Source: Maridesulfovibrio sp. (GTDB taxonomy: Bacteria > Desulfobacterota > Desulfovibrionia > Desulfovibrionales > Desulfovibrionaceae). From it: a stretch of 64,000 bases of DNA. The stretch covers positions 62,001 through 126,000 of the forward strand of contig NZ_OY763930.1 of assembly GCF_963667685.1 (NCBI RefSeq). The letters run 5' to 3'. The notes under the pieces were generated by a model that did not search any database, was not told the origin of the DNA, and saw nothing but the letters and a program-made list of their open reading frames with translations. A program made the position numbers and the translations under genes. Positions 5,694 to 22,978 of the stretch are shown in pieces. Position 1 is the stretch's first letter; every line of letters begins with the position of its first letter.

Positions 5694-5722
5694 ATAGCAA
5701 TCAGGGTAAACACAGAAAAAGA

Positions 5723-6688
5723 CTAAGACAAACCTTCAAGCGGATCGGTGGGAGAAAAATCAACTTCCTGTTTTACTATACCTTCCTGCTCAATCTTCAA
5801 CGCAAGAGTAAGGCACTCATGAGCGTTTACAGCCAGTTCTGTACCCTTTGCCAATTTTACTGCATGGGTGAACAGACGCTTACTTCTCCAGCTGTCTGTC
5901 AATTCCACAAAACGCATTCCCAGCTTAAGGCAGGCAATCGCCTCCGCCAGATGTGTCGGCAATCGATCCCAGCTGACATCCGGGCAGGCACGTTTTAAGC
6001 CAATCCTGAGGATAAGCCTTGCTGAAATTTCTGATTCATAAGGGCTTAAATCCGTATCTGCTGCACGCCCGTTGTTATGAATACGCCAAAGCTGCATATC
6101 CGCGTCAGTCCTGCGGATTTTGATTTTGTCGACAACCCGTGAAAACCACTCATAATCCTGACAAACCTTAAACTCAGGGTCATATCCGCCATAACGGGAA
6201 TAAAGCTCCCTGCGAACTAGAGTACCGCCGTCGGAAATCCAGTTTTTAAAAATCATTCCCGAGATCAAAGATTCCGGCTGTTCTATCCACTCAGGAACAC
6301 TGCGCCTCTCATAGGGTTGCAGCAGATGATTGGTCACCAGAATAGAGCCGGTAAAAACATCAAATGGCTGGTGGTTTTTAATTTTGTCCAGATAATGAGC
6401 CAGAATACGGGGAGCAAGCTGATCATCGGACCCGATCCAGATAATATAGTCCCCTTTCGCCAATTCAAGGCACTTGTTGCGGGCTGCCGGGCGACCTTGA
6501 TTTTCCTGCCAGAAATAACGGACTCCCTCCAGCTGACAAATCGAATCCGTCCCGTCTGTTGATCCGTCGTCTACAATGATAAATTCACACTCATCTGTAA
6601 TCTGGCTCAAAACGGAAGTTATGAGGTCAGTGATTAAATGCTTGCGATTATAGCAGAAAGTGCAAATAGAGATAAGGGGAGAAGACAT
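5723..6688 (-). CDS. Family 2 glycosyltransferase
   Basis: 321 residues. The N-terminal GT-A fold is clear: ISICTFCYNR, IIVDDGSTDGT, GRPAARNKCL and the metal-binding acidic stretch WIGSDDQLAP near residue 100. The C-terminal third is family-variable. It is convergent with the GT2/CDP-glycerol fusion (29-base gap) and sits among other surface-glycan genes. Donor and acceptor are unknown. A TGGAG site precedes the ATG. Confidence 0.9.
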   Translation of the reverse strand: MSSPLISICTFCYNRKHLITDLITSVLSQITDECEFIIVDDGSTDGTDSICQLEGVRYFWQENQGRPAARNKCLELAKGDYIIWIGSDDQLAPRILAHYLDKIKNHQPFDVFTGSILVTNHLLQPYERRSVPEWIEQPESLISGMIFKNWISDGGTLVRRELYSRYGGYDPEFKVCQDYEWFSRVVDKIKIRRTDADMQLWRIHNNGRAADTDLSPYESEISARLILRIGLKRACPDVSWDRLPTHLAEAIACLKLGMRFVELTDSWRSKRLFTHAVKLAKGTELAVNAHECLTLALKIEQEGIVKQEVDFSPTDPLEGLS

Positions 6689-6877
6689 GCAGGAACTCCA
6701 GCCTGATTAAAAAAAATCATCTAAAAAAAGGTAATGTACTAAGGAGAATCTCATTACAACGGAACAACTCGTCAGGGTGACTATCACAGAACAAATAACG
6801 GCAGCGCAACAAACCTGCCTCGCTATTCAAATCGTCAAAGGAAACTTCCCGTTTCCAACCTTCTTTACGCACTTTTT

Positions 6878-7915
6878 TTAATTATTATTATTTTTTAATT
6901 CCTTAAAGCGGGTATGGGCTTGCACCAGCCTGGTTATTGCAGACGGATCTTTACTTTGCAAAACATCCCAAAGCTGGAACAGCCCGACATTACCCATGAT
7001 ATTTTTCTGAATATTTTCAATATTGCGTGAAATCACACGATAAATAGTATTGATTCTGGCCATTTGAATAACAAAGTCCTGAGCATCCTCTTCATCATTA
7101 TTTTCATCACAGATACTGTTAAGCAGGTTGGGAATATATGTGGACAGGTACTCATTAAAAAACATGTCTGCAATTCTCAACTGCCCGGCTTTCGCAGCCT
7201 CTTCATAAAAGACCTCACAGCACTGTAAATAATTAACATAATGTTCAGCTGAATAAACAGTGGAGGAAAGAGAATCGCTGCGTTTTACCCAATAGTAAAC
7301 AGTATCAGGAATCCAGACCATACGGGGGATATGAAAAAAAAGACGTGCAAGAAAGACAATATCCTCGGCGGTCCGCATATTTAAGCCGTTAAAAATCTTT
7401 TTACGGCGCAATAAGTCGGTAGGGAAAAGCCATGCCCAGTGGGCACAAAAAAAAAGTCCCACAGTAGAATGCTTAACATAATCCACCGGTTTACAAATAT
7501 CCGGAAACCGCTCCGGTCTTGTTTCCTGATTTAAGAGTATGCCATCATTTGTAAATTCGCCATGACAGGCCCGGACAATAGCATTATGCTTCTTGTAAGC
7601 ATTGTAACGGACCTCAAGTGAATTTTCCGGCAGTTGATCATCAGGATCTGCAAAACAAAGGGTTTCCCCGGCAGCTTCCATTATCCCCCTGTTGCGGGCA
7701 GGGCCTGCGCCCATATTCTCAGGCTGGGGTAAAAGCTTAAAACGGGGATCAAACCCGGACATTTCCCTGATCATGGCTACACTTCCATCTGTGGAGCAAT
7801 CATCAACCAAAAGCACTTCAAAATCTTTCAAGGTCTGCTTCTGCAAACAAGCAAAAAAATGCGGCAGCCACTGCTGTGCATTATAAACAGCAACAACAAC
7901 GGAAACTTTAGGCAT
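6878..7915 (-). CDS. Family 2 glycosyltransferase
   Basis: 345 residues from the ATG at 7913-7915. An ATG two codons earlier (7921) is only 3 bases from the GGAG, whereas this one is 9 bases away, so it is preferred. The GT2 signature is strong: KVSVVVAVYNA, LLVDDCSTDGS, GAGPARNRGI and the DxD-like FADPDDQLP. The C-terminal half, rich in charged helices, resembles the extensions of enzymes that build repeat-unit surface glycans. Alone on the minus strand between two gaps. Specific sugar unknown. Confidence 0.9.
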   Translation of the reverse strand: MPKVSVVVAVYNAQQWLPHFFACLQKQTLKDFEVLLVDDCSTDGSVAMIREMSGFDPRFKLLPQPENMGAGPARNRGIMEAAGETLCFADPDDQLPENSLEVRYNAYKKHNAIVRACHGEFTNDGILLNQETRPERFPDICKPVDYVKHSTVGLFFCAHWAWLFPTDLLRRKKIFNGLNMRTAEDIVFLARLFFHIPRMVWIPDTVYYWVKRSDSLSSTVYSAEHYVNYLQCCEVFYEEAAKAGQLRIADMFFNEYLSTYIPNLLNSICDENNDEEDAQDFVIQMARINTIYRVISRNIENIQKNIMGNVGLFQLWDVLQSKDPSAITRLVQAHTRFKELKNNNN

Positions 7916-7939
7916 GTTCATCTACTCCGTAAAACTATC

Positions 7940-8193
7940 TTATATTCTCCAAACTCTAAGAAGCCTCAATATATATTTGATTGCATTCGCATCCCTGCCC
8001 AAAGATCCGCGTATAAAAGCATGAACAATAAGTTCAGCGGTCTTTTCAGGAGCCTCACTAAAACTGATTACCAAGTGGCAAAAAGGGGGTCAAGATCAAT
8101 ACACGCCATGACATCTTCATATATAACAATACCCTTCCTGCACCAGAGGATAATGTTTCCAGCTGAATTGACGAAAAAACTTTTGAAACAAGG
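7940..8193 (-). pseudogene. Frameshifted gene remnant downstream of the methyltransferase
   Basis: The minus strand has two adjoining open frames that read as one protein if a single base is gained or lost in an A5G5 tract at 8080-8089. The first (8193 to about 8089) contains GIVIYEDVMACIDLDP; the second (about 8089 to the TAA at 7940) contains VISFSEAPEKTAELIV and AIKYILRLLRV. Neither has a plausible start. The first is in frame with, and directly after, the TAA stop of the upstream methyltransferase. The product is not recognised. Composition and protein-like sequence support a decayed 3' end rather than chance. Confidence 0.5.
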
Positions 8194-9150
8194 TTACCTT
8201 GCTACACATCTCATTTTTAAAGTTGTTGTTGTTAGATTTTCCTCTCCATATTTTGCTAACAGAGTTGCAGGGGGAATGTTTGATATAATCAGCGGATGTT
8301 CCAACACAATATCAAAACCGCATCTGTCTAATATAGCGCGAAGTTCTTGAATAGTTATTTTATTCAGGCAGTCTCTGTGCCAGGTTCCAAACAACGAATC
8401 AAATTCATCGGGGTATAAAAGATGTGCCCATAGTTGAGATCTTTTATAGTAAGGACAATCTGTGCACCTCACATAGTCTCCTATGGAGATATCCAGACTT
8501 TCAGGAGGTGAATCAAGATCTGTCGGATGGTAGATCTGTGAACCTAAATATTCCCGTGTTTCTTTAGACGAAGGGCAGAACCCGTCATTCCAGCATTCTT
8601 CGCCCTTAGGAATGATTGTTTTGTAATTCTCCTTTGAGTGCATTACTGCAACATCATGTGCCCCCATTGGGCTGTAATAATTATCATGGTTTATAAACAG
8701 GATACCGCCTTTGGTGAGGCGTTGATGGATCAACTGTAAGCTCTGTTCCAGTATTTCTACGGCTATATGCTCAGAGGAGGTGTTGGAAAAGCATAAATCG
8801 AAAAGCAGATTTTTGGGCAGATCTTCCAAGGCATGAGGCAAGCTTAGTCCACGATATGTAAAGTGGTTTTGCGCAATTGAGAATATCTGAGGATTTTCCC
8901 ACATTGGATAACTATCTGTTGCCACAACATGTTTTGCGCCTGAGAAGACGAAAAGAGACGCATGGGCGGCAGTACCACACTCCCAATCGAGTATATTTTT
9001 TCCAATAATATCATCTTCTAAAGAAATTAATCGATGAGCAGAAAGACGCTGAAACTGCTCTTGCACCAAGCTTGCCCTGTGGAGCAGGTAGTCTGTAATT
9101 TCTTCTTCTGGAAAAACTGAAAGAAGTATTTCTTTGGGGGTAGCTATCAT
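8194..9150 (-). CDS. SAM-dependent methyltransferase-like protein
   Basis: 318 residues. A class I methyltransferase core is suggested by the first motif ILDWECGTAAHASLFVF, the acidic end of strand 2 in VVATDSYP, and LFDLCFSNTSSEH followed by LTKGGILFINHDN, as in Methyltransf_11-like proteins. Two Cys-rich spots (CTDCPYY) are unusual. It lies next to glycosyltransferases and probably modifies a surface sugar. It is divergent from the radical SAM operon, with a shared 331-base gap. The AAGGAGAG before the ATG fixes the start. Substrate unknown; the motif I match is imperfect (ECG for GCG). Confidence 0.65.
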   Translation of the reverse strand: MIATPKEILLSVFPEEEITDYLLHRASLVQEQFQRLSAHRLISLEDDIIGKNILDWECGTAAHASLFVFSGAKHVVATDSYPMWENPQIFSIAQNHFTYRGLSLPHALEDLPKNLLFDLCFSNTSSEHIAVEILEQSLQLIHQRLTKGGILFINHDNYYSPMGAHDVAVMHSKENYKTIIPKGEECWNDGFCPSSKETREYLGSQIYHPTDLDSPPESLDISIGDYVRCTDCPYYKRSQLWAHLLYPDEFDSLFGTWHRDCLNKITIQELRAILDRCGFDIVLEHPLIISNIPPATLLAKYGEENLTTTTLKMRCVAR

Positions 9151-9182: not shown

Positions 9183-9199
9183 CTGTTATACGATAACAG
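9183..9199. promoter_or_regulatory. Palindromic operator candidate
   Basis: Perfect 7-3-7 inverted repeat CTGTTATACGATAACAG, about 33 bases upstream of the methyltransferase ATG. Position and symmetry fit a dimeric repressor site or part of a promoter region; the binding protein is unknown. Confidence 0.35.
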
Positions 9200-9387: not shown

Positions 9388-9405
9388 TTGGCACTTTTCG
9401 TGCTT
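9388..9405 (+). promoter_or_regulatory. Sigma-54 (RpoN) promoter candidate
   Basis: TTGGCACTTTTCGTGCTT matches the -24/-12 pattern: TGGCAC, then GC with exactly ten bases between the GG (9390-9391) and the GC (9402-9403). The expected transcript start is near 9415, about 70 bases before the radical SAM ATG. The -12 half is GTGC rather than TTGC. No activator site could be identified. Confidence 0.55.
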
Positions 9406-9482
9406 AAAAGCATATTGTCATCAGAGATGACATTGCCAACAAAAAAATAAATCCTGGCAAATTGACATATAAGAGGCCCTCT

Positions 9483-10781
9483 ATGAAAAAAACATTTAAA
9501 GGCATTGATCTTGTAAACCTTTCCATTACTAACAAATGCATATTGCAATGCCCAAGTTGCCCTACGGGAAGACAAAATTTTATTTCACAAAAAGCTTTAA
9601 AATATACTCCCCTAGACACATGTGTAAAAATATTCCGTAAAGTTTTAGATATTTATGGTAAACAAATGTTTTACCTCCATATATGGAATGAACCACTCAT
9701 TCATCCACAGCTTCATGAAATCCTTGCTGCTTTAAACAACTTTGGACATACAGCCTTTGCCAGTTCTAATCTTAATCTTAAACAGGATTGGGAAAAACTT
9801 TTGAATGCTACGGCACTAAAGGTGCTTGTCGTTTCTATGTCGGGCTATCATCAAGAGACGTACGAACGTGGACATCGAGGGGGGAATGTAGAGCTTGTCC
9901 TTAATAACCTGAAAGAGATTGGCAAATATACAAGGGATTCGCGTACTCAGGTTGTTCTTAATTTTCACCAATACAAAGATAATGCAGAAGATGCTGCCAT
10001 TCTGGAATCACTTTGCAATGAATATGGCATTATTTTTAAACCATACCTTGCTTCTCTCCTGCAAGACCACATCCATGAAGACGTAGTATCAGGTTCTCCC
10101 CGCTGGAAACAAAATTCTGACGCTATGGAGCTGGTCCTTCCGCGTCTTAAGTTTCAGCCTTTTCCTTTTACAAACATAGACAATGTCGCGCCAGTTCCGT
10201 GTCATTCGCAAAATCATGTTCTGGTTCTTGACTATGAAGGTAATATCTGCACCTGCACCCATAAAGGGCCGGAAGACCCCAATCGCCTTGGTAATTTTCT
10301 TGCTATGACCAAAGAGGACATCGACAAAGCCAAGAAGGTGGCTCCTGTTTGTGTTGAGTGCAGGAAGTTGGGACTTCACCTCGAATATGCGTTTGCCTGC
10401 TTCTTTGAGCGTCCCAGCAAGGACAGTTCGGAAACCATTGCCCTGCTCAAAGGCTCTGCTCTTTCTGCGGACTTTGCTAACAAAAAAATCTTTGTATTCG
10501 GAGCAGGCATGTCCGGTGGAGCAGTCGCTCCTTTTCTCAAGCATAGGGGATATCTGGTACAGGGCTTTATAGATGATGATGCCAGAAAGATTGGCACTCT
10601 TATTCATGGACTTCCTGTGTACGCTTTTTCTGAAGTGCTCGCCAATTACCCCGAAGCCATCATTATCGATACTATCAGGTCGTCTCCAGCGCGAAAATAT
10701 GTTGAAGATAACCCAAAAAATACGGGTGTTTCAGTGTATTCGGCAGAAGATTTTCTTTATACAATCGTAAAAAATGCTTGA
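9483..10781 (+). CDS. Radical SAM enzyme with SPASM-like cysteines and C-terminal nucleotide-sugar-type Rossmann domain
   Basis: 432 residues from the ATG at 9483, which has AGAGG seven bases upstream; an earlier TTG frame start lacks this. The radical SAM cluster motif is CILQCPSC near residue 20. A second cysteine group follows in the C-terminal part (CTCTHKG and CVECRKLG), resembling a SPASM/auxiliary-cluster region. The last 100 residues contain KIFVFGAGMSGGAVAPFL and GFIDDD, like the small Rossmann domain of PglD-type enzymes. It probably performs radical chemistry on a sugar or sugar-linked residue. First gene of the six-gene operon; its stop nearly meets the next paralogue. Reaction unknown. 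Confidence 0.8.
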   Translation: MKKTFKGIDLVNLSITNKCILQCPSCPTGRQNFISQKALKYTPLDTCVKIFRKVLDIYGKQMFYLHIWNEPLIHPQLHEILAALNNFGHTAFASSNLNLKQDWEKLLNATALKVLVVSMSGYHQETYERGHRGGNVELVLNNLKEIGKYTRDSRTQVVLNFHQYKDNAEDAAILESLCNEYGIIFKPYLASLLQDHIHEDVVSGSPRWKQNSDAMELVLPRLKFQPFPFTNIDNVAPVPCHSQNHVLVLDYEGNICTCTHKGPEDPNRLGNFLAMTKEDIDKAKKVAPVCVECRKLGLHLEYAFACFFERPSKDSSETIALLKGSALSADFANKKIFVFGAGMSGGAVAPFLKHRGYLVQGFIDDDARKIGTLIHGLPVYAFSEVLANYPEAIIIDTIRSSPARKYVEDNPKNTGVSVYSAEDFLYTIVKNA

Positions 10782-10792
10782 GGGCTGGAAAT

Positions 10793-12139
10793 ATGATTAC
10801 CGCAAGGTTTGAAATAACGAATAGGTGCAATCTTAAGTGCCCTAGCTGCTATTCTGGTCGGGCAAATTATCTTAATCAGCATCCGGTATTCAAATATGCA
10901 AGCTTAGAATTGTGTGAAAAGATTTATAAAAAGCTTAAATCTTTTGATAAAAATATTGAAATGAAATTGTATCAGCTCAATGAACCTCTTTTGCATCCAG
11001 ATCTGAATGGTGTTCTTGACCTCAATGATAAGTATGATCTTCCATGTTGCATAAGCAGCAATATAATTATCAAAAAAGATTGGGTACAATTGCTTGCCCA
11101 CAAATCTTTGAGACGATTTATTATTTCAACTTCCGGTTGTTTCTCAAATTCTTACCCACTAGGACACAGAGGGGGAGATACTGCACTTTTCCTGAAGCAT
11201 CTGAACGAGCTAGCACTGGCTGCAAAAACATCCAGTACGGAAATCGAGGTTATTTTTCATCAATACAATGATAACGAAAAAGATGAAAAATATCTTTCCT
11301 CTTTCTGCTATGAAAATGGATTTACATTTACACCAATCCCCGCTTTCATCATGTACTCCCCATGGGATAACGCTTGCAAATACAGAGGAAAAGAAAAGGA
11401 ACAGCTAGACATCGCTACCAATGTAATTCCTCGTATAATATTGCAAAAAAATTTCCTTATCGAAAATATTCCCGGTCTTGGCATGCTCCCTTGTATGAAT
11501 GAGTCAAAGAACGATATTGCTATTGATACAGAAGGATATGTTCAACATAATTGCTGCATGGTCCCTTTTTCAGAAGAACACAGGGCTGGACATATTTTGG
11601 ATCTTTCTTTCGAAGAGACACAACAAATTCAGAAAAAGCTGTCTATCTGCCTTGATTGCAAAAAGAAAGGCTACCATATGCAATACGGACTCATACCGCA
11701 CATAGAATATACATATTTGGCTCGTACTAGAGCCTCATCCCACTCCGAGGTGAATATAAACGAATCTATTCGCTCTTTTTTACGCTCCCCGCTTCCTCCC
11801 AAAAAAATCCAAAATACACCCATATATGTATACGGACTGATTGGTGGTGAGAGAATTATTCGCTTGTTACAAGCGAAGGGATGTATTGTTGCTGGCATAA
11901 TCGATGACAACCCAAGGTTGACAGGGGTTGAATGTGAAGGCTACCCAGTGCTGAATATGGAGCAGGCCAGCTCCACTGACAGCTTTAGAAAAGGCACTGT
12001 AATAATTTGCTTTATTCGTTCCCCTGAACAAATCAAAGTAATAAAAAACAACCTACTGGAGAAAGGAGTAGCTCAGGCCCTCAGCCTATACGAACTTTTT
12101 GTTTCCGCAAAAGACGATCGGGTTACGCAACAAGCATAG
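10793..12139 (+). CDS. Radical SAM enzyme, paralogue of the preceding gene
   Basis: 448 residues from the ATG at 10793 (GAGGG eight bases upstream). It has the same plan as its neighbour: CNLKCPSC near residue 15, a later cysteine set (CMNESKND, HNCCMVPF, CLDCKKKGYH) and a C-terminal VYGLIGGERIIRLL...GIIDDNP Rossmann-like domain. The GHRGG segment after a serine-rich strand is shared by both paralogues. Retention of both suggests two steps or two substrates, or a heteromeric pair. Function is inferred only to the level of radical SAM chemistry in a glycan operon. Confidence 0.8.
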   Translation: MITARFEITNRCNLKCPSCYSGRANYLNQHPVFKYASLELCEKIYKKLKSFDKNIEMKLYQLNEPLLHPDLNGVLDLNDKYDLPCCISSNIIIKKDWVQLLAHKSLRRFIISTSGCFSNSYPLGHRGGDTALFLKHLNELALAAKTSSTEIEVIFHQYNDNEKDEKYLSSFCYENGFTFTPIPAFIMYSPWDNACKYRGKEKEQLDIATNVIPRIILQKNFLIENIPGLGMLPCMNESKNDIAIDTEGYVQHNCCMVPFSEEHRAGHILDLSFEETQQIQKKLSICLDCKKKGYHMQYGLIPHIEYTYLARTRASSHSEVNINESIRSFLRSPLPPKKIQNTPIYVYGLIGGERIIRLLQAKGCIVAGIIDDNPRLTGVECEGYPVLNMEQASSTDSFRKGTVIICFIRSPEQIKVIKNNLLEKGVAQALSLYELFVSAKDDRVTQQA

Positions 12140-12158
12140 TTAACATGGAAAATATGTA

Positions 12159-13508
12159 ATGAAAATTTTTTTAGGCACAGTAAATATTGCTTCGCTGTAT
12201 GATGATTTAAAAGCAGGATTCGAGAGTTTGGGGCATGAGGTAATTACCATGCAAAAAATACCCCCCAATCCGATACAAACTCCGGTTGATATAAATACGT
12301 ATTCTGAGGCAGAAAAAATGCTCTCCAAGATAACACGCAAGCACCCTCAACCGCCTCATAAACAGCAGGAGTATCTAGAACAATTTAAAGCTTTAACATT
12401 AAACAAAGCTTTTAAAGAAGCATGTACAGCCGATTTATGTATATTTTTATGGTCAACCTTTGCCCCTGATCTGTCTGATGTCATTGCCTTGAAACAAATG
12501 GGTGTAAAAGTTGCAATTTTATTTTGCGGTTCAGAATCACGAGTAGTTCCAGTAGAAAACCATTACCGCAGGCTTACTGAAGCACCGCAAGTAGGAAACC
12601 CATCCGACTTCACTTTCCAAAGAATTTTATCCGTACTCACTTATGTACGACTTGCAGAAAAATATGCGGACGCTTTGCTCGGAGCTACCATCGCAGGCTT
12701 GAGGCCTTCATATAATCTGATAACGACAATCCTTGATTATGAAAAGATTCCTTGTGTGGTGCGAAAAAGAGATGAACCTATTATTCTTCATGCACCATCT
12801 AACAGGAGTACAAAGGGAACCGAAATTTGGCAGCAGATATTTTCTGATTTGAAAGCAGAAGGATTGAAATTTAAGGTTCGCCTTTTGGAAAACATATCAC
12901 ACGCCGAAATGTTACAGGTTTTCCAGCACATGGATATTTATTGCGGATCACTTAAGCATGGCGGAAAAATGGATAGAGAGGCCATGGCGGGAGGGTGTGC
13001 GTCCCTGTCTTCCTATTTAAAAAATACAGACCTGGTTTTTTCTTTGATGAACAAAGATAGGGAGATACTTACGGAACGTTATAAAATACAGCCCGGATCA
13101 AATCAGGATAACTACCTGTTTGAGCAACACAGTCGACAGGGTTGGTACTACACCAAAGAGCAGAACCCCTGTATTCACGTTGATTCTCAAACAGCAAAAG
13201 ATGAGCTTAGAAAAATAATTAAAGACAAGGATTTGCGCTTCAGATTAGGAGAATCAGGACGAAAAGCCACTGAAAAAAATTGTTCGCCGACACTAATGGC
13301 TCAAGATATTCTGGACATGGTAGAAAATCCTGAAAGTTTTGAAACGCAGGCTAAACTTTCAGGTCACTATTCATTTCTTCGCGAGATGTATTCACCAGAT
13401 TCACAAGCAGAAGTCGAATTATTGAACGCGACAACGGAAGTAGTTAAGGAATGCAATTGGTATTTTCCACAGGTAAAATCACTAGTAAGAGAAGGGTTAC
13501 GCTTTTAG
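12159..13508 (+). CDS. GT-B-fold glycosyltransferase-like protein
   Basis: 449 residues. The N-terminus (KIFLGTVNIASLYDDL) and the C-terminal ILHAPSNRSTKGTEI and EAMAGGCASLSS segments match group 1 (GT4-like) glycosyltransferases; the EX7E-type region is degenerate (GGKMDREAMAGG). The long HPQPPHKQQEYLEQF insertion near residue 60 is uncommon. Third gene of the operon, 19 bases after the second radical SAM gene. The Shine-Dalgarno site is weak (GGAAA ten bases upstream), and no better start exists. Sugar specificity unknown. Confidence 0.7.
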   Translation: MKIFLGTVNIASLYDDLKAGFESLGHEVITMQKIPPNPIQTPVDINTYSEAEKMLSKITRKHPQPPHKQQEYLEQFKALTLNKAFKEACTADLCIFLWSTFAPDLSDVIALKQMGVKVAILFCGSESRVVPVENHYRRLTEAPQVGNPSDFTFQRILSVLTYVRLAEKYADALLGATIAGLRPSYNLITTILDYEKIPCVVRKRDEPIILHAPSNRSTKGTEIWQQIFSDLKAEGLKFKVRLLENISHAEMLQVFQHMDIYCGSLKHGGKMDREAMAGGCASLSSYLKNTDLVFSLMNKDREILTERYKIQPGSNQDNYLFEQHSRQGWYYTKEQNPCIHVDSQTAKDELRKIIKDKDLRFRLGESGRKATEKNCSPTLMAQDILDMVENPESFETQAKLSGHYSFLREMYSPDSQAEVELLNATTEVVKECNWYFPQVKSLVREGLRF

Positions 13509-13522
13509 TAAAGGATAGATAG

Positions 13523-14845
13523 ATGAACTTATTATTTAGAAATGACGACATTAGCGCAGACAACAATGCTGTAGACCTAAAAGAACTCTGCAATATTTTT
13601 CATCAATATGGTTTTACTCAATTGCATGGTGTTACTTTGTACGGATGGACTCAAGAACACAGCATTGAAAATGGAATTCCCAAAGTTTATCCTGAGCATG
13701 ATGAAATTACCAACCTTTCCAATAAGCAAATTAAAGAACTTTCCCAGGACAAATTTGTTGGGGACAACAAAGAACTCGTTGCCTACATAAACAGCATTCC
13801 AGATCCGATCGCACTTCATGGTCTCTATCATTACGACTATTCGCAAATGACCAAGGAAGAACAAGAGGCTGACATTCTTTGCGGACTTGAATTACTGACG
13901 AAGCTTTTTCCTAAAAAAATTGTTAAAGATTTTATAGCTCCCTATAACAAAGCAAATGAACACACTCATGCTGTGTGCGAGAAACTTGGACTTAAACTTC
14001 ATACAGCCAACGGAACGCATCTGGAAGCTCTTATACACTATGGTAATAATTGGAAACTAGTTGAAGGCGAGACATACCGTTACCACCACCACAGATTTTA
14101 TAAAGATTCACTCTTTGATAATTACAAGCTGTCAACTGAACGTCTTTATCGTTTTTTCATGCACACCACTGTGCGTCCTTTAATGAGTATTGACGAATAT
14201 AAAGATTGTATTCAAAAGGCTGACGCACAAACCTGGTACGGCTATGCATATGAAAAATACGAAGAGTTAAAGCAGTGCTATCTTCCATATATGTGGATAA
14301 GAAACAATATTGCCAGAGATTATAAAATTTTGGAAACAGGATGCGGAGCTGGCGGGGTACTGCACTTCCTCTGGCACGAAGGATTTTGCAATCTATACGG
14401 ACACGATTACGACGCCAAGGCCATTGATGCAGCGAAGAGAATTGCTCAAAAGCATGGCGCTGAGATGAACTTCGAAATTGTTGATTGTACAACTCCTAAC
14501 GATATTGGGACATTTGATGTTCTTTTAGGAATGAATTGGTTCTATCTTATCGATGGGTATGATCTGGCGCAATTTATTCGTCAATACAGCCCTCATGTAG
14601 CTGGTGAAGGTTACTTGATTTTTGATGTTATCGATTCATCCTATAATAAAAATCCTCTGAACATGTATCATACGCAGGACTGGAAAATAGAGGACGGAGA
14701 AAGAAGGCCCAGCGAATATAAGGTACGTTACTCAACTGAAGAGGTGATTGAGATAGCCAAAGAGAACAATCTTTCTTTGGTAGAAAATTGGTACGTTGAT
14801 TACACGATCCCCCGTAGGGTTTTCGTTTTTCAAGCCCAAAAATAG
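13523..14845 (+). CDS. Polysaccharide-deacetylase-like domain fused to SAM methyltransferase
   Basis: 440 residues. Residues 1 to about 180 resemble a carbohydrate esterase 4/NodB-type deacetylase: FRNDDIS gives the paired aspartates, ALHGLYHYDY gives an HxxxH metal motif, and DFIAPYNKAN fits the later family motif. Residues about 245-440 form a class I methyltransferase: ILETGCGAGGVLHFLW, GHDYDAKAID and LLGMNWFYLIDG. The fusion suggests N-deacetylation and methylation of the same glycan. It sits 14 bases after the GT-B gene in the operon. Both domain calls come from motifs; the deacetylase half is the less certain. Confidence 0.7.
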   Translation: MNLLFRNDDISADNNAVDLKELCNIFHQYGFTQLHGVTLYGWTQEHSIENGIPKVYPEHDEITNLSNKQIKELSQDKFVGDNKELVAYINSIPDPIALHGLYHYDYSQMTKEEQEADILCGLELLTKLFPKKIVKDFIAPYNKANEHTHAVCEKLGLKLHTANGTHLEALIHYGNNWKLVEGETYRYHHHRFYKDSLFDNYKLSTERLYRFFMHTTVRPLMSIDEYKDCIQKADAQTWYGYAYEKYEELKQCYLPYMWIRNNIARDYKILETGCGAGGVLHFLWHEGFCNLYGHDYDAKAIDAAKRIAQKHGAEMNFEIVDCTTPNDIGTFDVLLGMNWFYLIDGYDLAQFIRQYSPHVAGEGYLIFDVIDSSYNKNPLNMYHTQDWKIEDGERRPSEYKVRYSTEEVIEIAKENNLSLVENWYVDYTIPRRVFVFQAQK

Positions 14846-14859
14846 CATGAACTCTTAGC

Positions 14860-15966
14860 ATGTCACGTAGCTCTACAAAAGGAATCTGCCTCATAATCCC
14901 CACAATAACTTGGGGCGGAGCTGAAAAAGTAATGGTGCACCTTGCGGAATGGTGGGCAGAGAACAAAGGGCATGTTGATTTAATCACTTTTTCCCGCATG
15001 GCAGATGAAATTCCCATCTCAAAAAACGTAAACAGAGTGTTTTTAGAAGACCTGCCATGCCCTGACAATTTGCCGGTTAATTTGGAATGGGAGGAAGAAA
15101 CAGAGAATATTTATAAACTGGCTTCAGCAATCCAACAAACGCAGAAGAAGTATATAGTAAGCTTTCTTTCACGCATGAATGTTCGAACCCTTATCGCTGC
15201 TCCCAGGGAAAGCAAGGTTGTAGTTAGTGAGCATTCATACCCTCCCTTGCGAGAGATGCCCCCCTCTTTTGAGGAGCTTCGCAAGAAGTGGTACCAACAA
15301 GCCCACAGGGTAATCTTGCTTACACAGCGAGCCCGCGTTGACTGGGCGGATACATTTTTGCCCCGTCAAAAGACAGAAGTTATCCAGAATCCGTTCTTGC
15401 CAGTTGAAAATTCCAATGACGATGTAAGCCACATTTTACCGCCCAATTACTTTCTTGCAGTGGGAAGGCTGGCAAAAGGAAAAGGACACGACATATTAAT
15501 CAAAGCTTTTTCATTGTTTTTGCAAAGACATGAAGGAGTAAAGCTTGTTTTAATTGGTGAGGGTCCCGAATATAACTCGATCATGGCGCTTGTAGAAAAA
15601 TTAGAGCTGGAAGACCATGTCCTTTTCCTGAAACATCGCAATCGGGTAGATATTGCCATGCAAAAGGCACTGGCGTTAATACTTTCTTCATTTTTTGAAG
15701 GTTTTCCAAATGTTCTTGTGGAGGCCATGGCCTATGGTACAGCGTGTATTGCCTCAGATTGTAAAACAGGTCCATCTGAACTTATCAAATCGAATCATTC
15801 GGGAATACTATTCCCCCCAGGCAATATTCACTGCTTGCATAGGGCAATGGAAATAATCTACACCAAACAAGATTTACGAAACAAATTAATTAACAATGCG
15901 AGGCAAAAGATCGCTTTGTTAACAAAAGACAAAATCTTTCCTCAATGGAGCGGTTTGTTTTTCTAG
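14860..15966 (+). CDS. GT4-family glycosyltransferase
   Basis: 368 residues. A clear GT-B enzyme: ICLIIPTITWGGAEKVMVHLA at the N-terminus, YFLAVGRLAKGKGHDILIKAF in the hinge, VLIGEGPEYN, and the retaining-enzyme motif SFFEGFPNVLVEAMAYG with the paired glutamates. The end (FPQWSGLFF) looks slightly short compared with GT4 enzymes of about 380-400 residues but complete. Fifth gene of the island operon, 14 bases after the fusion gene. It shares the GGAEKVM/GGGAERVM start with the GT4 at 19116 on the other strand, so the two are probably related in role. Confidence 0.9.
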   Translation: MSRSSTKGICLIIPTITWGGAEKVMVHLAEWWAENKGHVDLITFSRMADEIPISKNVNRVFLEDLPCPDNLPVNLEWEEETENIYKLASAIQQTQKKYIVSFLSRMNVRTLIAAPRESKVVVSEHSYPPLREMPPSFEELRKKWYQQAHRVILLTQRARVDWADTFLPRQKTEVIQNPFLPVENSNDDVSHILPPNYFLAVGRLAKGKGHDILIKAFSLFLQRHEGVKLVLIGEGPEYNSIMALVEKLELEDHVLFLKHRNRVDIAMQKALALILSSFFEGFPNVLVEAMAYGTACIASDCKTGPSELIKSNHSGILFPPGNIHCLHRAMEIIYTKQDLRNKLINNARQKIALLTKDKIFPQWSGLFF

Positions 15967-16010
15967 CCAGCTCTTAATTAATAATCGCGCATAAATCGGA
16001 ACCCACTCTT

Positions 16011-16976
16011 ATGAAGAATTCTGACATTACACTCGAGCAAATTTGCTGTCCTGTTTGTTCGACTGAATCAGCTAAGGAAATTTTCCGCCGCCCCGATCAT
16101 GCTTTTCAAGTCAGTTCTTATGCATTTCCTGTTGTAAAGTGCATTAATTGTGGCATGGGATATGTGAAGACAAGGCCCTCTGCACAGTCTCTTCACGCAT
16201 TTTATCCTGCTGAGTTTTATAAAAAAAACCATACAGAAGCCGCTCCAGTACTACACAAAAAACTAAACTTGCTTAATAAATTCACCACAGAAGGAACACT
16301 GTTGGATATTGGATGTGCTGGTGGAGAGTTTATTCATCATGCATCCCAAAATGGATGGGAAGCGTATGGATATGAGTGGTCATCTACTCCCCCTAACCAT
16401 TTTTCCGGGCGAATTGCCTATGGCGAATCGCCCCTTGAAGCATATGAAGGGAAAAGATTTTCCGCCATTACAGCATGGGCGGTAATGGAACATGCACACA
16501 ACTTACAATCCCTTACTAAAGATATAAGCAAGTTGCTTGCACCTGGTGGAATCTTTGTATGTTTAGTGACTAATTTCAATAGCTTGCCTGCCAGATTTAT
16601 GCAACGGGATGATATCCCGCGTCATCTGAATTTATTTACCAAGTCATCCCTTACCAGACTATTGAAAGAACATCGCATGTCTCCTATCCATTGGGATTTT
16701 GGTAATGAAATCTTCAGCGGCAGCCACCTTGGTCTTTTAGTCTTTCTTGCTAAACGATTTGCAGGAGAATCCATAGAGACTATTGTCGAGCAGCACCGGG
16801 CTCCAGGACAAAGATCGTTATTTTGCAACACTCTTTACGGAAGCCCCTCAAGAATGATAAAAGCTCTCTGTAGATTAGATAAAGCCCTGACTCCAGGCAT
16901 CGACTTTTTGGCTTCAAAATTAAATGCAGGGCTAACTATGACAGTGATAGCAAAGAAGAATAGCGCGGATAGTTAA
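16011..16976 (+). CDS. Zinc-ribbon class I methyltransferase (Methyltransf_23-like)
   Basis: 321 residues. The N-terminal CPVC and CINCG pairs form a zinc ribbon typical of sugar C- or O-methyltransferases. The SAM site is LLDIGCAGGEFIHHA near residue 100, followed by AITAWAVMEHAHNL and LLAPGGIFVCLV. Last gene of the operon; its final codons lie inside the 16959-16989 hairpin. The last 25 codons are duplicated about 1.5 kb away (18473-18540). Substrate probably a sugar of the surface glycan. Confidence 0.85.
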   Translation: MKNSDITLEQICCPVCSTESAKEIFRRPDHAFQVSSYAFPVVKCINCGMGYVKTRPSAQSLHAFYPAEFYKKNHTEAAPVLHKKLNLLNKFTTEGTLLDIGCAGGEFIHHASQNGWEAYGYEWSSTPPNHFSGRIAYGESPLEAYEGKRFSAITAWAVMEHAHNLQSLTKDISKLLAPGGIFVCLVTNFNSLPARFMQRDDIPRHLNLFTKSSLTRLLKEHRMSPIHWDFGNEIFSGSHLGLLVFLAKRFAGESIETIVEQHRAPGQRSLFCNTLYGSPSRMIKALCRLDKALTPGIDFLASKLNAGLTMTVIAKKNSADS

Positions 16977-16989
16977 GGTCCGCGCTATT
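16902..16989. repeat. Direct repeat R1, copy 1 (methyltransferase tail plus terminator)
   Basis: The last codons of the methyltransferase and the hairpin after them. The second copy is at 18473-18562 in the same orientation; the shared block includes TTCAAAATTAAATGCAGG and the ACTATGACAGT segment. The hairpin stems differ in sequence yet both stay palindromic. Confidence 0.8.
16959..16989. terminator. Hairpin terminator between convergent genes
   Basis: AATAGCGCGGA pairs with TCCGCGCTATT around a nine-base loop, followed by a T-rich run on the plus strand. It overlaps the methyltransferase stop and ends five bases before the stop of the opposing gene, so it can serve both. Confidence 0.7.
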
Positions 16990-16993
16990 GATT

Positions 16994-18316
16994 TTAAATA
17001 TTGTCGCCTTCATGAAATACTAGAGGGAGTGGTATGGGAGCTCCTTCAGGAAAGATAGAGACCAGATATTCTCGAATATGATCGGGGATCGCATTGGCAC
17101 CCGGTAACGTTGTTGATTTCCACCATTCCCGCCAATCCTGAGCACTGCTCCAGTCTCCGCTGACATAGCGTCTCTCAAAACTTGTCCAGTAGCTACGGTC
17201 TTCAGCAAATGCTAACGCTTTGATAGAGTCTAACAATATCTCAAAGCTTTTTCCAACGCCCAACACTTCAGACTCGCGTTGTTTTAATATTTCTTTTTGC
17301 ATTAGCGAGCTGTTAGAATAACATTCTCGCAATGTTTTCTCCAATTCAAGCTGACTTCTTACAAGAAATCCAAAGCGAGCAATCTCCCCTCCCTTATGCG
17401 GCTTATACATAATGTTGGGTATATCTGTCGCTATTGAAAACGTTATTCTGCCAGCTGAACCATTAGTTAAGTAGACTTTTGCACGTGTAAACGAAGGTAT
17501 TGTAGAGGGATTGGTATCAAAGACCACACGGTCTAGCCCGGAGAACTCCTCCATAAATTTTTTAACTAGCCTGTCTTCCCAATTAAAAGGATGAAAACGG
17601 AAAATAATTTTAGCATCAGGCAATGAATTTAAAGCACTTTGTAACATTACATACCAGCTATTTTGATGCTGTTCCTCTGTAAAATTTCGCATACTTAGAG
17701 AAGTTGGGGCAATTAAAACAATATCTTTTTCTACTTGTTCGGCCTCTACTCTTTCTCGCACCAGATCTGCTTTTAGGTACCCACCTTTTATTAAAGTAAA
17801 CAGACCTTCTCTACGTTGGCCCGCGGCAGGGAGTACGTTATTAAACAGTTTTTCGCACTCCTCATAATTAAGATTACCAAGTTCTGCTTGCGCCACGAAT
17901 AAAGCATCACAATGCGGCAACAACCTTGTTACTAATCTTAACCTATTAAGTGTAATATTATCATCGGAAGCCATGTATTCTGAAAAATAATGAGGGCATG
18001 CAATGACTTTCGTTTTATAAGAGAAAGTCGGCCTGTCATAGTCAATATCAGAAACAACCGCGACGGAGATGGTGTCTATGCTTGAAAAATCAACTGTATC
18101 AGAAACAAAGACAGGAATGGAATCTAGCTTTCCATTTGCAAAATTGCGTGAAAGTCTAGCACGACTTTCCGTTAACACAACAACGGGATTAAACTCTGTT
18201 TGGTCAATCTTAAGTGCAACTGCAAATAAAACATCTTCAAGTAGTCCATGCTCGACTAGTATTACAACAACAGGTAAATCTGATTTATCGCAAAACAACT
18301 TGAAATCATTTATCAT
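16994..18316 (-). CDS. CDP-glycerol-glycerophosphotransferase-like surface-glycan transferase
   Basis: 440 residues. The central and C-terminal parts look like the GT-B fold of TagF-type or capsule-type transferases: VLIAPTSLSMRNF, IIFRFHPFNWEDRLV and VYLTNGSAGRITFSIATDIP (the HP and S/T-GSAG positions correspond to the HP and TDYSS motifs). The N-terminus (VVVILVEHGLLEDVLFAVAL) is a Rossmann-like half. A GAGGT site fixes the ATG at 18316. It is the intact cargo between the R1 and R2 repeats and may be a transferred cassette. The specific donor is not readable. Confidence 0.6.
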   Translation of the reverse strand: MINDFKLFCDKSDLPVVVILVEHGLLEDVLFAVALKIDQTEFNPVVVLTESRARLSRNFANGKLDSIPVFVSDTVDFSSIDTISVAVVSDIDYDRPTFSYKTKVIACPHYFSEYMASDDNITLNRLRLVTRLLPHCDALFVAQAELGNLNYEECEKLFNNVLPAAGQRREGLFTLIKGGYLKADLVRERVEAEQVEKDIVLIAPTSLSMRNFTEEQHQNSWYVMLQSALNSLPDAKIIFRFHPFNWEDRLVKKFMEEFSGLDRVVFDTNPSTIPSFTRAKVYLTNGSAGRITFSIATDIPNIMYKPHKGGEIARFGFLVRSQLELEKTLRECYSNSSLMQKEILKQRESEVLGVGKSFEILLDSIKALAFAEDRSYWTSFERRYVSGDWSSAQDWREWWKSTTLPGANAIPDHIREYLVSIFPEGAPIPLPLVFHEGDNI

Positions 18317-18472: not shown

Positions 18473-18562
18473 GATTTTTCGATTCAAAATTAAATGCAGG
18501 ACGAACTATGACAGTAATAGCAAAGAGAAATAGCGTGTAAAATAATTTTACACGCTATTTCT
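18473..18562. repeat. Direct repeat R1, copy 2 (methyltransferase tail scar plus terminator)
   Basis: Encodes FFDSKLNAGRTMTVIAKRNSV and a stop, parallel to the C-terminus of the methyltransferase at 16976, with no upstream gene. AAATAGCGTGTAAAAT (18528-18543) pairs with its complement ending at 18560 to form a terminator hairpin. Confidence 0.8.
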
Positions 18563-18609
18563 TTTAATGTTTTTACTTTTATTTGCAATATAAAATTAAA
18601 GCTTAATCA

Positions 18610-19065: not shown

Positions 19066-19148
19066 CTTCAAATCAGCAGGGCACTGTTAACAAGTGGTAT
19101 ATTTAGTAAACAAAACTACCTAGTCGAATCAGTCTGATATATTTCTGA
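19066..19148. repeat. Direct repeat R2, copy 2 (at the 3' end of the GT4 gene)
   Basis: Covers the last 11 codons of the GT4 gene (SEIYQTDSTR) and about 50 bases beyond its stop. It pairs with 18387-18470. A few small indels separate the copies. Confidence 0.8.
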
Positions 19149-20306
19149 GAGAATCGTGCTATCCAATTGACGCACAGTCCCTTTCCCTTTTGTTTTTAAT
19201 GCACTATCTCCCTGTAGATCTTCCAGCAAAGAGGTCCATAGTTGCATAACTTTTTCAGGGTGGCATTTCTCTTGAACTTTTTTAGCTGCCTCACCTAACC
19301 TCTTTCGTTCTTCAGGATTTCCAAGTAATTCCATGATTGCCTGCTCAAGAGCTACAGGATCTTCAGGCGGGAGCAAAAGTCCATTTTTACCGGGTTCGAT
19401 AAGAGATGCAGGTCCAGATGGACAGTCAAAACTAACAACAGAAATCCCCAATGCCATAGCTTCTACCAAAGCATTGGGAAAGCCTTCGAAGCGAGAAGGA
19501 AAAACAAAAAGTGATGCCTTTTCCATTATTGAATGTGGATTCTTAATAAACCCAGGCATTATTACCTTGTCCTCAACCTTTAATTCTCGGCATTGCATTT
19601 CCAGCTTATCACGATCCTCTCCTTCACCTAAAATAACTAGAGTATAGTCGGGGTAATGCTTAAATATTTCAGGAAGACGATCTAACAGGATATCAAATCC
19701 TTTTTGATAATGCAGCCGCCCCATACAACATATGAATTTCTCTGGTAACCACTCAGGCACCTCTTCAGGGCGCACCTCCAAAGGGAGTACGGGATTATGA
19801 ACTACATGAACTTTTTGGGATGGCACAAAGTGGGCAGCCCATTCTTCTTTTACATTTTCTGTTAGAACGGTAACAGCATCGGCTCGCGGATAGCAAAATC
19901 TCATAAACGTTCGCTTGCATATCCCATAGTTCTGAGTACGTGGATCAATTCTTTCAGCGACAACTACTTTCACATTCAAGCCACGGGTTGCTAGAATAAC
20001 CGGAATGTTTGAACGGTCCATAAAACTGATAATTAACTTGTTACCTTCTTCTCGAATAGTGTCCTTAAGCTTTCTGGTGCTCCATGGAAAATTGAAAAAA
20101 GAGCCGAAAGATACACTAGGAGGTTTTAACCAGATCCTTTTTACTCTTGAGTCAAGAGTATATGCATCCGTATCTGGAGGAACAGAAGTTATGATTGAGA
20201 CTGACACACCTCGGGCTACCCAATAGTTAGCCATTGTTGTCATCACTCTTTCTGCCCCCCCTCCCATAAGGGAGCGGATTATCATGGTTATCCCTTCAAT
20301 TTGCAT
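19116..20306 (-). CDS. GT4-family glycosyltransferase
   Basis: About 396 residues from the ATG at 20306, chosen because GAGAGGG lies five bases upstream. The open frame reaches 20420 without a better start. Clear GT4 features: ITMIIRSLMGGGAERVMTTMA, FICCMGRLHYQKGFDILLDRL, LVILGEGEDRDKLE and ASLFVFPSRFEGFPNALVEAMALG. It probably transfers a sugar from a nucleotide donor onto a lipid-linked surface glycan. Its 3' end lies in repeat R2. Confidence 0.92.
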   Translation of the reverse strand: MQIEGITMIIRSLMGGGAERVMTTMANYWVARGVSVSIITSVPPDTDAYTLDSRVKRIWLKPPSVSFGSFFNFPWSTRKLKDTIREEGNKLIISFMDRSNIPVILATRGLNVKVVVAERIDPRTQNYGICKRTFMRFCYPRADAVTVLTENVKEEWAAHFVPSQKVHVVHNPVLPLEVRPEEVPEWLPEKFICCMGRLHYQKGFDILLDRLPEIFKHYPDYTLVILGEGEDRDKLEMQCRELKVEDKVIMPGFIKNPHSIMEKASLFVFPSRFEGFPNALVEAMALGISVVSFDCPSGPASLIEPGKNGLLLPPEDPVALEQAIMELLGNPEERKRLGEAAKKVQEKCHPEKVMQLWTSLLEDLQGDSALKTKGKGTVRQLDSTILSEIYQTDSTR

Positions 20307-20761
20307 AGCAACCCTCTCAAAAAGAACATTTAATTTATTTAATTCAAAATACTCGCTTGCATAATTACCTACAAGTCCAAGAGCTACATAGTTACAGTTG
20401 GCGACTATTGATATACTCACGACAAGCTGTGGGCAGAAAATACCACTGACTCAAAAGATCTAGTTCAGCGGAAGAATCTTTCTAGATAAAATTTGTCATA
20501 ACTGGCAAGAGACTCCCTAACAATAAAAAAACAGCCAGCTCATTTCTGTTTATGCAAAAAAAGAGCCAAACACATCATCACTGATGATTCTTCTCGAATG
20601 TAATTTTTGGCAAACCAACCTAATGCTCCAGCAAGGAGTTTGCCGAGAAAAGAATAATTCCAGCGATGGCATATTTCTGATGCGCAGCAAGACTCTACAG
20701 GATTAAAATGGTTCAAGAAAAAAACGTTGCCGGATTCGAGCTAGTTGCTTTCGTAAGCCTG
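20307..20761. other. Intergenic region holding a gene remnant
   Basis: 455 bases between the GT4 and the sensor protein, both on the minus strand. The segment next to the GT4 is its untranslated leader. The remnant at 20540-20740 is described separately. The rest shows no recognisable feature. Confidence 0.5.
20540..20740 (-). pseudogene. 3' remnant of an unrecognised gene
   Basis: An open minus-strand frame of 66 sense codons between two stops, without a start codon. It encodes protein-like sequence (NHFNPVES, RWNYSFLGKLLAGALGWFAK, MCLALFLHKQK). It looks like the C-terminal part of an enzyme, perhaps a methyltransferase or transferase of the glycan region, but I cannot name it. Confidence 0.45.
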
Positions 20762-22978
20762 CTATTGGACCTCACTTTCCATCAATAATTTACGCAATTC
20801 AGCAACGCAGGAAGGTGTTGGAGCTGTTAGGTCGGCCCCGGAGACTTCTTCATCACCAAGAACAACGACAAAAGGTGTACGCGGCAAAATATCAAGGCTT
20901 TTTATGGACGAAATTGCCTCCTCAAAAGAATCTCCACCTAAATCTTCTCCAAGGAAAACAACTTCAGGCCTTAGTAACTGCAAGGCCCTCATTCCTTTCT
21001 CAACAGTCTTGCGGACAATCAGAGAACAACCTGCGCACTCTGAAAAAAGCTGCCGCATATCATCAATATTTTTGCTGTTTGCCTCTATGAATAAAACAGA
21101 ATGAGCTTCTTCAACTTCATCTTTATCCATGCACGAATCAGTATTTTCGGTTGCCACTTGCCCATGGTCAAAAACGCTGAAAATATCTTTTTTGCCGCCA
21201 TTGTCCCCGAAATCAATTTTTCCTGATGTGGAAATATCCAGAACACTATCAATCATTTTCAACAGCTTGCGCCCGGATTCGGAAATGTGTTCGACATGCG
21301 CTTGGTTATTGCTCGCAAACGTCTCCTGCCCATCAGCCAAAATCCTATCTGAAAAGCCCGCAATATCTTTGATCGGGGGCCGCAACTCATGGCACATACG
21401 GGAAATGAATTCAGATTTGGCCCGACTTAAAACTTCCGCAGCATGCAGATCTTCTTTCAGCTGTTTCTCCGTCTGCACCCTGTCAGTAATATCCACAAAA
21501 CTTTCCAGCAGATAGGAAGCATCCCCTCTCTTGAATGGCACTACACTTTTAAGAACAGACTTACCGTTAGATAGCTTGCGCACGGCATGGTCTATTTCCT
21601 GCCCAAGATCTGTAACCGGACATTTGTTCACCTCAGCTGGACATATATATTCATGGCAGACAGCCCCTAGAGCCTCATCCCTGTTCACTCCAATGATTTT
21701 AGCTGCAGTTTCATTCATATCCAAAATGGTATGCGTCTCCTCCTCGATAACAACCACCCCGGCCTGAACCCCCTGCAGAACGGCGTGTGTGTAGTCCTGC
21801 TGGCTTTTAAGCCGTTTTTCCATTTCAATTCGATCCGTGATATCCATAAAAGCTTCAAGGAGAACCCGTTCTCCAGCAAAATTAATTTCGGTCGCCTTTT
21901 TCAGTACTGTTATTTTTCGGCCGGAAATGGTTCGTACAACAACTTCATTGGCAGATGATCCAACCTTGCTATTTATGAAAGGACAATATTCATCCGCGGA
22001 AAAACAAAAAATATTTTCGCAACTCTGACCGATGACAGATTCTCCCTGCGGGACATCAAAAATCATCAATGCTTCAGAATTCACGCGCATAATTTCACGC
22101 TTTTCATTGATTATTGCCATACCGACCGGAATAGAATCCACAATATTCTCAATAACCCGGTTTGCCTGTTCAAGATTGTTGGATTTCCTTTCCCGGTCAG
22201 CAAGAATAGTACTTATATTGAACAGGATGCGGAAAAAGAGGAAGAGGAATAACGGCAGGGTGCAAACCATAATTCCAAGCCTAACATTATCCATATCAAC
22301 GGTGACATCTTCTTTGAGCTTGTTCAGACGGTTTATATCCACCTGCGTTTCAAAAAATATTTTACTTGCAGATTCCCGCGCACGAAGAATAAGCGCGTCA
22401 ATCTGCATTGTCCGAAATCTCAGGGAATGGTGAACCTTCTCAAGAGTTAAAGTATCCTGTTTTTGCAACAACTCCCGCATGTTGGATGCGATATTTGCCA
22501 CCGCTTCGCCAAGCTCAAAAATTTTTGGGTTAAGATCAATAACTTCCATGGCATAACCGTCATTATTCCCACGGCGAAAAGTTATCTGCTCCTGAACTTC
22601 ATCGGTATCATAAAAATTTGCCGGAAAAGTATTTACAAAAGTTCCCCCGTTCTGAAGGACTGTCAATATTGTCCCCAGCTTATCAAGGCTGTGGTTGATA
22701 TCGGCAAGCAACAGATCAACCATGCGCGGATCAGCAGAATCGACAATCTTTGCCACCCCCAATTCAACCAGAAGCAACCGGTGCATTAAAGCCATGCCAA
22801 GCTTCGACCTTGTTTCCTGATTATAAATTTCCTGATCATAACCAGACAGAATATTGAGCTTTACCCTGTCCACAACAAAATTAACCGTAAAGGTCAGTAG
22901 GAAAATAAGACAGAGAAACAGAATCCTGGAGGTGACCTGTTCTTTAAATATCCCGGGTAACTTTCTATCTAACATCAT
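20762..22978 (-). CDS. Membrane PAS sensor with HisKA-like helix and degenerate receiver, no ATPase domain
   Basis: About 738 residues from the ATG at 22978, which overlaps the upstream binding-protein gene by 14 bases. Order: one TM (ILFLCLIFLLTFTVNFVV), a periplasmic four-helix-type domain, a second TM (LGIMVCTLPLFLFLFFRILF), two PAS domains each with a Cys-rich loop (CENIFCFSADEYC, CHEYICPAEVNKC) and each ending in DITDR, then a HisKA-like segment (MCHELRPPIKD) and a receiver-like domain. No HATPase_c motifs (N, G1, G2 boxes) follow the histidine. In the receiver the usual aspartate before the hydrophobic strand end is replaced (FLGEDLGG). Probably a signalling partner of the ModA-like lipoprotein. 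Confidence 0.7.
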   Translation of the reverse strand: MMLDRKLPGIFKEQVTSRILFLCLIFLLTFTVNFVVDRVKLNILSGYDQEIYNQETRSKLGMALMHRLLLVELGVAKIVDSADPRMVDLLLADINHSLDKLGTILTVLQNGGTFVNTFPANFYDTDEVQEQITFRRGNNDGYAMEVIDLNPKIFELGEAVANIASNMRELLQKQDTLTLEKVHHSLRFRTMQIDALILRARESASKIFFETQVDINRLNKLKEDVTVDMDNVRLGIMVCTLPLFLFLFFRILFNISTILADRERKSNNLEQANRVIENIVDSIPVGMAIINEKREIMRVNSEALMIFDVPQGESVIGQSCENIFCFSADEYCPFINSKVGSSANEVVVRTISGRKITVLKKATEINFAGERVLLEAFMDITDRIEMEKRLKSQQDYTHAVLQGVQAGVVVIEEETHTILDMNETAAKIIGVNRDEALGAVCHEYICPAEVNKCPVTDLGQEIDHAVRKLSNGKSVLKSVVPFKRGDASYLLESFVDITDRVQTEKQLKEDLHAAEVLSRAKSEFISRMCHELRPPIKDIAGFSDRILADGQETFASNNQAHVEHISESGRKLLKMIDSVLDISTSGKIDFGDNGGKKDIFSVFDHGQVATENTDSCMDKDEVEEAHSVLFIEANSKNIDDMRQLFSECAGCSLIVRKTVEKGMRALQLLRPEVVFLGEDLGGDSFEEAISSIKSLDILPRTPFVVVLGDEEVSGADLTAPTPSCVAELRKLLMESEVQ

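Follow-up and report, generated by a model that had tools for sequence, protein, structure and literature searches.

Six-gene glycan operon

Analysis of a 64,000-nucleotide stretch of the Maridesulfovibrio sp. genome (contig NZ_OY763930.1, positions 62,001 to 126,000; hereafter the window) pointed to a six-gene glycan-decoration operon at positions 9388 to 16989, beginning with two radical S-adenosylmethionine (radical SAM, rSAM) genes. The glycan role of the operon is well supported by its genomic context. The fuller reading, a decoration operon in an accessory island, timed by sigma-54 and acting most likely on an exported protein, with flagellin as first candidate, is put forward tentatively and was judged slightly short of probable. 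The features of the operon, all on the plus strand, are as follows.

9388 to 9403, plus: sigma-54-like promoter, TTGGCAC-N5-GTGC, 1 mismatch to TGGCAC-N5-TTGC
9462 to 10781 (better start 9483), plus: rSAM1, radical SAM protein with C-terminal PglD/NeuD-like Rossmann domain (PF04055, PF02629, TIGR03570, VioB 7txp)
10479 to 10772, plus: Rossmann domain of rSAM1 (domain profile match)
10778 to 12139, plus: rSAM2, radical SAM protein with Rossmann-like C-terminus (PF04055 below cut-off, CxxxCxxC)
12159 to 13508, plus: gene 3, GT-B-like protein (weak glycosyltransferase matches in homologues)
13523 to 14845, plus: gene 4, NodB-type deacetylase fused to methyltransferase (PF01522, PF13649)
14860 to 15966, plus: gene 5, glycosyltransferase GT4b (PF00534)
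16011 to 16976, plus: gene 6, zinc-ribbon methyltransferase (PF13489)
16959 to 16989, plus: terminator-like hairpin of 12 pairs, stem second longest among the sites found

The six open reading frames (ORFs) were tightly spaced, with one 4-base overlap followed by gaps of 19, 14, 14 and 44 bases, and none of the encoded enzymes had a predicted membrane segment. The first-pass annotation had taken them for one operon on one strand, and the layout bears this out: the sequence supports a single predicted transcription unit from the sigma-54-like promoter to the hairpin terminator, although terminator-like hairpins in the region numbered 12 against 10.1 expected. For rSAM1, the ATG at 9483 (AAGAGG 6 bases before it) is a likelier start than 9462 and lies 79 bases after the promoter match. 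The GC content was lowest in the operon (40.5%), compared with 42.4% for window positions 1-20760 and 46.6% for 20761-64000. The operon had earlier been described as AT-rich relative to flanking core genes and as a six-gene unit; the low GC and the six genes stand, but what lies to the left is further glycan genes from the same island, and the unit is larger, the operon forming part of an island of about 34 kb.

Radical SAM enzymes and the Rossmann domain

The Pfam search matched rSAM1 to PF04055 (1.5e-07, 32.2 bits, cut-off 29.5) and PF02629 (8.6e-05), while the PF04055 match of rSAM2 (5.7e-06, 27.0 bits) fell under the cut-off. Both proteins carry CxxxCxxC and are 30% identical to each other, in agreement with the claim of two radical SAM paralogues. 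Residues C26, C30 and C33 were invariant across five aligned rSAM proteins, as were C247, C265 and C297, with no match to PF13186 (SPASM). The PHROGs search returned generic radical SAM and methyltransferase families only.

The C-terminal domain of rSAM1 matched TIGR03570 (NeuD) at 1.3e-06, over profile positions 1-80 of 202 only, and the VioB structure sequence 7txp at 2e-4. It thus resembles the N-terminal Rossmann domain of the NeuD, PglD and VioB sugar acyltransferases; it differs from them in being fused to a radical SAM domain, and no hexapeptide acyltransferase domain was matched in rSAM1 in Pfam or NCBIfam. The Rossmann domain of rSAM2 had no Pfam match of its own and was assigned by alignment with other proteins.

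A domain profile built from four seeds, both window rSAM proteins among them, located the same module on two FkbM methyltransferases (L067 and L126; Pfam) and on a protein at L124 that is a methyltransferase by reading only; none was found at L090, L091 or L150-L155. The module is shared with glycan-type methyltransferases, as if it steered different modifiers to one ligand. A profile search of the phylum (395 genomes) gave matches in 10 genomes at 1e-30, the own genome included, and 8 of the 10 neighbourhoods were read (not G384 and G409). Tandem Rossmann-rSAM genes were present in three genomes, with three genes each in G464 and G442 and four in G515; the Rossmann domain is N-terminal in these distant arrays and C-terminal in the window rSAM. 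That such fusions constitute an unnamed enzyme family, making radical-derived sugars on flagellin or on other molecules at the surface, is possible, but less probable than the decoration reading as a whole.

The plasmid CP026658.1 (L156) of Deltaproteobacteria bacterium Smac51, from cockroach gut, carried at least five Rossmann-rSAM ORFs; of those listed, most bear the annotation hypothetical protein. Genes for asnB and a perosamine synthetase accompany them.

Other operon enzymes

Gene 3, labelled a GT-B enzyme in the first-pass annotation, had no Pfam family at 0.001 and no match in a PDB sequence search. PF13524 was reached at E 0.2 by the protein itself and at 0.0005 and 0.014 by two homologues, so the label survives as a weak assignment to the GT-B glycosyltransferases, drawn from the homologues. 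The remaining three labels were upheld. Gene 4, the deacetylase-methyltransferase fusion, contained PF01522 and PF13649 in one protein (Pfam), with D8/D9, H99 and H103 conserved in the homologue of G037. Among 247 genomes of the order, 22 matched gene 4 at 1e-10, and both domains were spanned only in the own genome and G037; a scan of genome contigs and a plasmid search with gene 4 gave no match. GT4b matched PF00534 (4.8e-41) and was 32-36% identical to proteins of three relatives. Gene 6 matched PF13489 (4.5e-20) and was 48 and 50% identical to gut Desulfovibrio orthologues; its zinc-ribbon cysteines (C13, C16, C44 and C47) were invariant in three aligned orthologues.

Accessory glycan island

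The operon is not self-contained; it sits in an accessory, acquired glycan island that extends over about 34 kb of glycan genes, from position 6034 of L083 (C1:48,034) to the GT4a gene (C1:82,420). The island features within the window are as follows.

3 to 9150, no strand given: left part of the island, including a DegT aminotransferase, a hexapeptide acyltransferase and a Gfo/Idh/MocA oxidoreductase; further genes for a fusion of a GT2 glycosyltransferase and a glycerophosphotransferase, two GT2 glycosyltransferases and a methyltransferase-like protein
16994 to 18316, minus: convergent gene with no Pfam family; G009 and the genome's other glycan island both carry homologues, about 30% identical
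19116 to 20420, minus: glycosyltransferase GT4a, member of the conserved set (PF00534 1.5e-40; 47-56% identical to three relatives)
20554 to 20568, minus: second sigma-54-like site, intergenic, upstream of GT4a, 1 mismatch; alone within the window it is at chance level

The right border is a histidine kinase gene (20762-23026, minus strand) with PAS and HisKA domains and without a HATPase_c match; a relative at L145 (872 aa) seems, by reading, to retain the ATPase part. The border kinase gene was matched in 7 further genomes within the genus, and the island-side 20 kb was read for six of these (G001 was left out). BLAST (1e-8) of the island glycan genes against the six stretches gave no match. 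By reading, a gene resembling glucose-1-phosphate thymidylyltransferase lay at a distance of about 16 kb in two of the stretches (L150 and L153). In a third (L151), the left border of the island was represented by three ORFs, 78-90% identical, about 7 kb from the kinase, with fimbrial genes (by reading) between them and the kinase.

No ORF of at least 150 aa in L083 6000-20000 and window 1-20760 had more than two hydrophobic segments in a simple hydropathy count, and the same kind of count found no polytopic membrane protein in the gut Desulfovibrio cluster L101. Since no polytopic membrane protein is predicted, the island appears to lack its own flippase, polymerase and exporter, which fits decoration in the cytosol, such as O-glycosylation of flagellin.

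Two further features were seen in this island. The gene at 3069-5693 (plus strand) joins a GT2 domain to a CDP-glycerol glycerophosphotransferase-type domain, and the long gap between the genes at 16994-18316 and 19116-20420 contains a 20-pair hairpin (18523-18565, both strands).

Conserved gene set in relatives

The search of the order (E<=1e-15, own genome counted) gave rSAM1 matches in 11 of the 247 genomes and GT-B-like matches in 6. Three of the five other GT-B genomes were among the ten other rSAM genomes (hypergeometric P 0.0005, uncorrected for kinship), one of the genomes (G116) having its rSAM and GT-B matches on separate contigs.

Two gut Desulfovibrio metagenome-assembled genomes (MAGs; CALVGJ010000092.1 and NZ_CALUWS010000021.1) showed the order GT4a, GT4b, B12-type rSAM, rSAM-Rossmann, GT-B and methyltransferase. 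Five enzyme families (rSAM, GT-B-like, two GT4 and zinc-ribbon methyltransferase) thus occurred together in both, with identities to the window of 54 and 56% for GT4a, 36 and 32% for GT4b, and 31 and 32% for GT-B. The same-genus genome G009 had rSAM, GT-B, both GT4 genes and the 16994-18316 homologue clustered with AsnB, and its cluster methyltransferase differs from that of the window. Conserved co-occurrence had been set beforehand as a test of the operon, and it was observed: the core genes are together in the two gut MAGs and four families in G009.

The Lawsonia intracellularis plasmid NC_008013.1 (L158, 12772-26174) carried a relative of the GT-B-like protein, 27% identical over its length, along with two radical SAM genes, asnB, a DegT-type aminotransferase and methyltransferases.

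Sigma-54-like promoter

The sequence at 9388-9403 is TTGGCACTTTTCGTGC. The bare GG-N10-GC pattern on which a promoter had first been proposed occurred 438 times in the window against 438.6 expected; being exactly at chance level, it is no promoter evidence and was rejected as such. The full element fared better. When the 311-base intergenic region was shuffled 2000 times, a TGGCAC-N5-TTGC match with at most 1 mismatch on the correct strand arose in only 4 cases, and the core of the element turns up again in a second family within the order. That second case is the nearest rSAM1 homologue found (50% over residues 9-298), in the Desulfomicrobium MAG JANJWV010000104.1 (L062), where the rSAM gene is second in its operon, after an epimerase gene, and the operon is cut by the contig end. 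The epimerase gene is preceded by TTGGCACGCCTGGTGCTTAA, with 68 bases between them; of 5000 shuffled versions of the 126-base stretch upstream, 39 gave an equally good match. Both sites share TTGGCAC-N5-GTGCTTAA, which forms the chief block of conservation between their upstream regions. Sigma-54 control of the operon is moderately supported by these comparisons.

An ordinary sigma-70 promoter, or none, with the sigma-54 match arising by chance, is rather unlikely. A sigma-70-like match (TTGGCA-17-CATATT, 9/12) does overlap the site, and sigma-54-like sites of the same quality (at most 1 mismatch) were not enriched across the window (4 seen, 2.85 expected). Such a site preceded the first gene in two of four relative clusters, that of Desulfomicrobium and, at about 196 bases from GT4a, that of E20_bin138; none was found before the clusters of G009 and of G203, which is closely related to E20_bin138. 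Sigma-70-like matches were, however, no more frequent than in shuffled sequence (23 versus 28.5), and the sigma-54 core is common with the Desulfomicrobium operon, whose upstream stretch has 53% GC, while the -10-like part, by reading, is not.

The sigma-54 regulon of D. vulgaris is a known parallel. There, 37 of 85 sigma-54 operons serve flagella and the cell exterior (PMC4641369), and the flagellar regulator motif is GGCA-N4-TGCC (PMC3333781). The window operon is alike in promoter type, cell-exterior functions being dominant in that regulon; it differs in being accessory and in its intergenic sequence, where no FlbD-type GGCA-N4-TGCC was seen on reading.

Perfect 7-base inverted repeats with 3-base spacers flank the promoter at 9183-9199 and 9416-9432. 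The latter approaches yGTCA-N6-TGACr, with an N7 spacer instead. It was rejected as the site of a many-target regulator, having just one other copy in the genome under the strict pattern.

Proposed function and acceptor

For the radical enzymes, we infer a substrate and chemistry in which the PglD/NeuD-like Rossmann domain would hold a nucleotide sugar or another shared ligand and the radical SAM domain would oxidise, epimerise or rearrange it. The glycosyltransferases would build a short glycan in the cytosol, and the deacetylase and methyltransferases would trim and cap it. The acceptor would most likely be a protein exported afterwards, flagellin first, and an enhancer-binding protein with sigma-54 would time expression.

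Flagellin glycosylation islands of the Campylobacter, Aeromonas and Clostridium type hold cytosolic sugar, glycosyltransferase and methyltransferase genes and no flippase. The window island resembles them in this composition, and sigma-54 control fits; it differs in that its operon is unlinked to flagellar genes and carries two radical SAM enzymes, and in that the island is without a Maf-like gene, the genome's single Maf-like match (PF01973) being 184 kb away. In two Desulfobacterota genomes with tandem Rossmann-rSAM genes (G464 and G442), the island adjoins fliS (Pfam) and fliD (by reading), with flagellin 7-9 kb from the rSAM array. By analogy, flagellin is a plausible acceptor.

Several results weigh against this choice. 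No flagellar gene lies near the operon, the closest flagellin match on its contig being about 430 kb off. A flagellar neighbourhood was seen in only 2 of the 8 read, and the flagellum-linked rSAMs are remote, with the Rossmann domain N-terminal; for G515, no flagellar gene was recognised in the 40 kb read. All 10 relatives tested had flagellin, but so did 215 of the order's 247 genomes; given this baseline, it is uninformative on the target and was rejected as support. The inference of flagellin or surface-glycan decoration in the first-pass annotation is well supported as to the glycan role; for flagellin as target, the case is one of analogy with distant relatives.

It is quite possible, if somewhat less so than the decoration of an exported protein, that the operon builds or modifies a lipopolysaccharide, capsule or exopolysaccharide side chain, with flippase, polymerase, exporter or ligase supplied elsewhere in the genome. 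The DegT, acyltransferase, oxidoreductase and sugar-dehydratase genes nearby are of a general surface-polysaccharide type, and at the window's right end, beside an epimerase, 63381-63983 (minus strand) encodes the C-terminal portion of a PelG-type protein for exopolysaccharide export. Relatives of the rSAM genes lie near an ABC polysaccharide exporter in G555 (by reading); on a Methylocystis plasmid, a relative has a MurJ-type flippase and a protein with an O-antigen ligase domain in its vicinity. Capsule cluster VII of Campylobacter jejuni HS:19 has radical SAM, methyltransferase and glycosyltransferase genes together, as in the window operon; that cluster is assigned to capsule, and the likeness is one of description, not sequence (PMC8743553). 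In D. vulgaris, exopolysaccharide operons are also among those driven by sigma-54. On the other side, Wzy- or ABC-exported polysaccharide loci differ from the window island, for which the hydropathy count gave no flippase, polymerase or ABC exporter; no polytopic protein was counted in L101 either, and both gut MAG clusters were without export genes in the stretch read.

Modification of a protein or peptide by the rSAMs, with the glycan genes as chance neighbours or partners in a subsequent step, is improbable: the best NCBIfam matches of both are maturases (TIGR04317 and NF050035), but far under the cut-off (48.0 bits against 380), and the rSAMs carry a fused PglD/NeuD-like domain and are accompanied by glycan genes in the clusters read.

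The literature searched yielded no description of this gene set, the one relevant passage being that on the Campylobacter capsule cluster (PMC8743553), and it contains little on radical enzymes that act on flagellin or surface glycans. If the decoration reading is true, the operon would be a compact gene set whose promoter can be tested, and the family of Rossmann-rSAM fusions would gain a directly testable substrate class.

Second glycan island

The same genome contains a second glycan island (L066 and L067; G000:C1:2030001-2066000) with several radical SAM genes. Also present are FkbM methyltransferases bearing a PglD_N-like domain, as well as sugar genes of NeuB-like and CDP-glucose type, the names being partly by reading.

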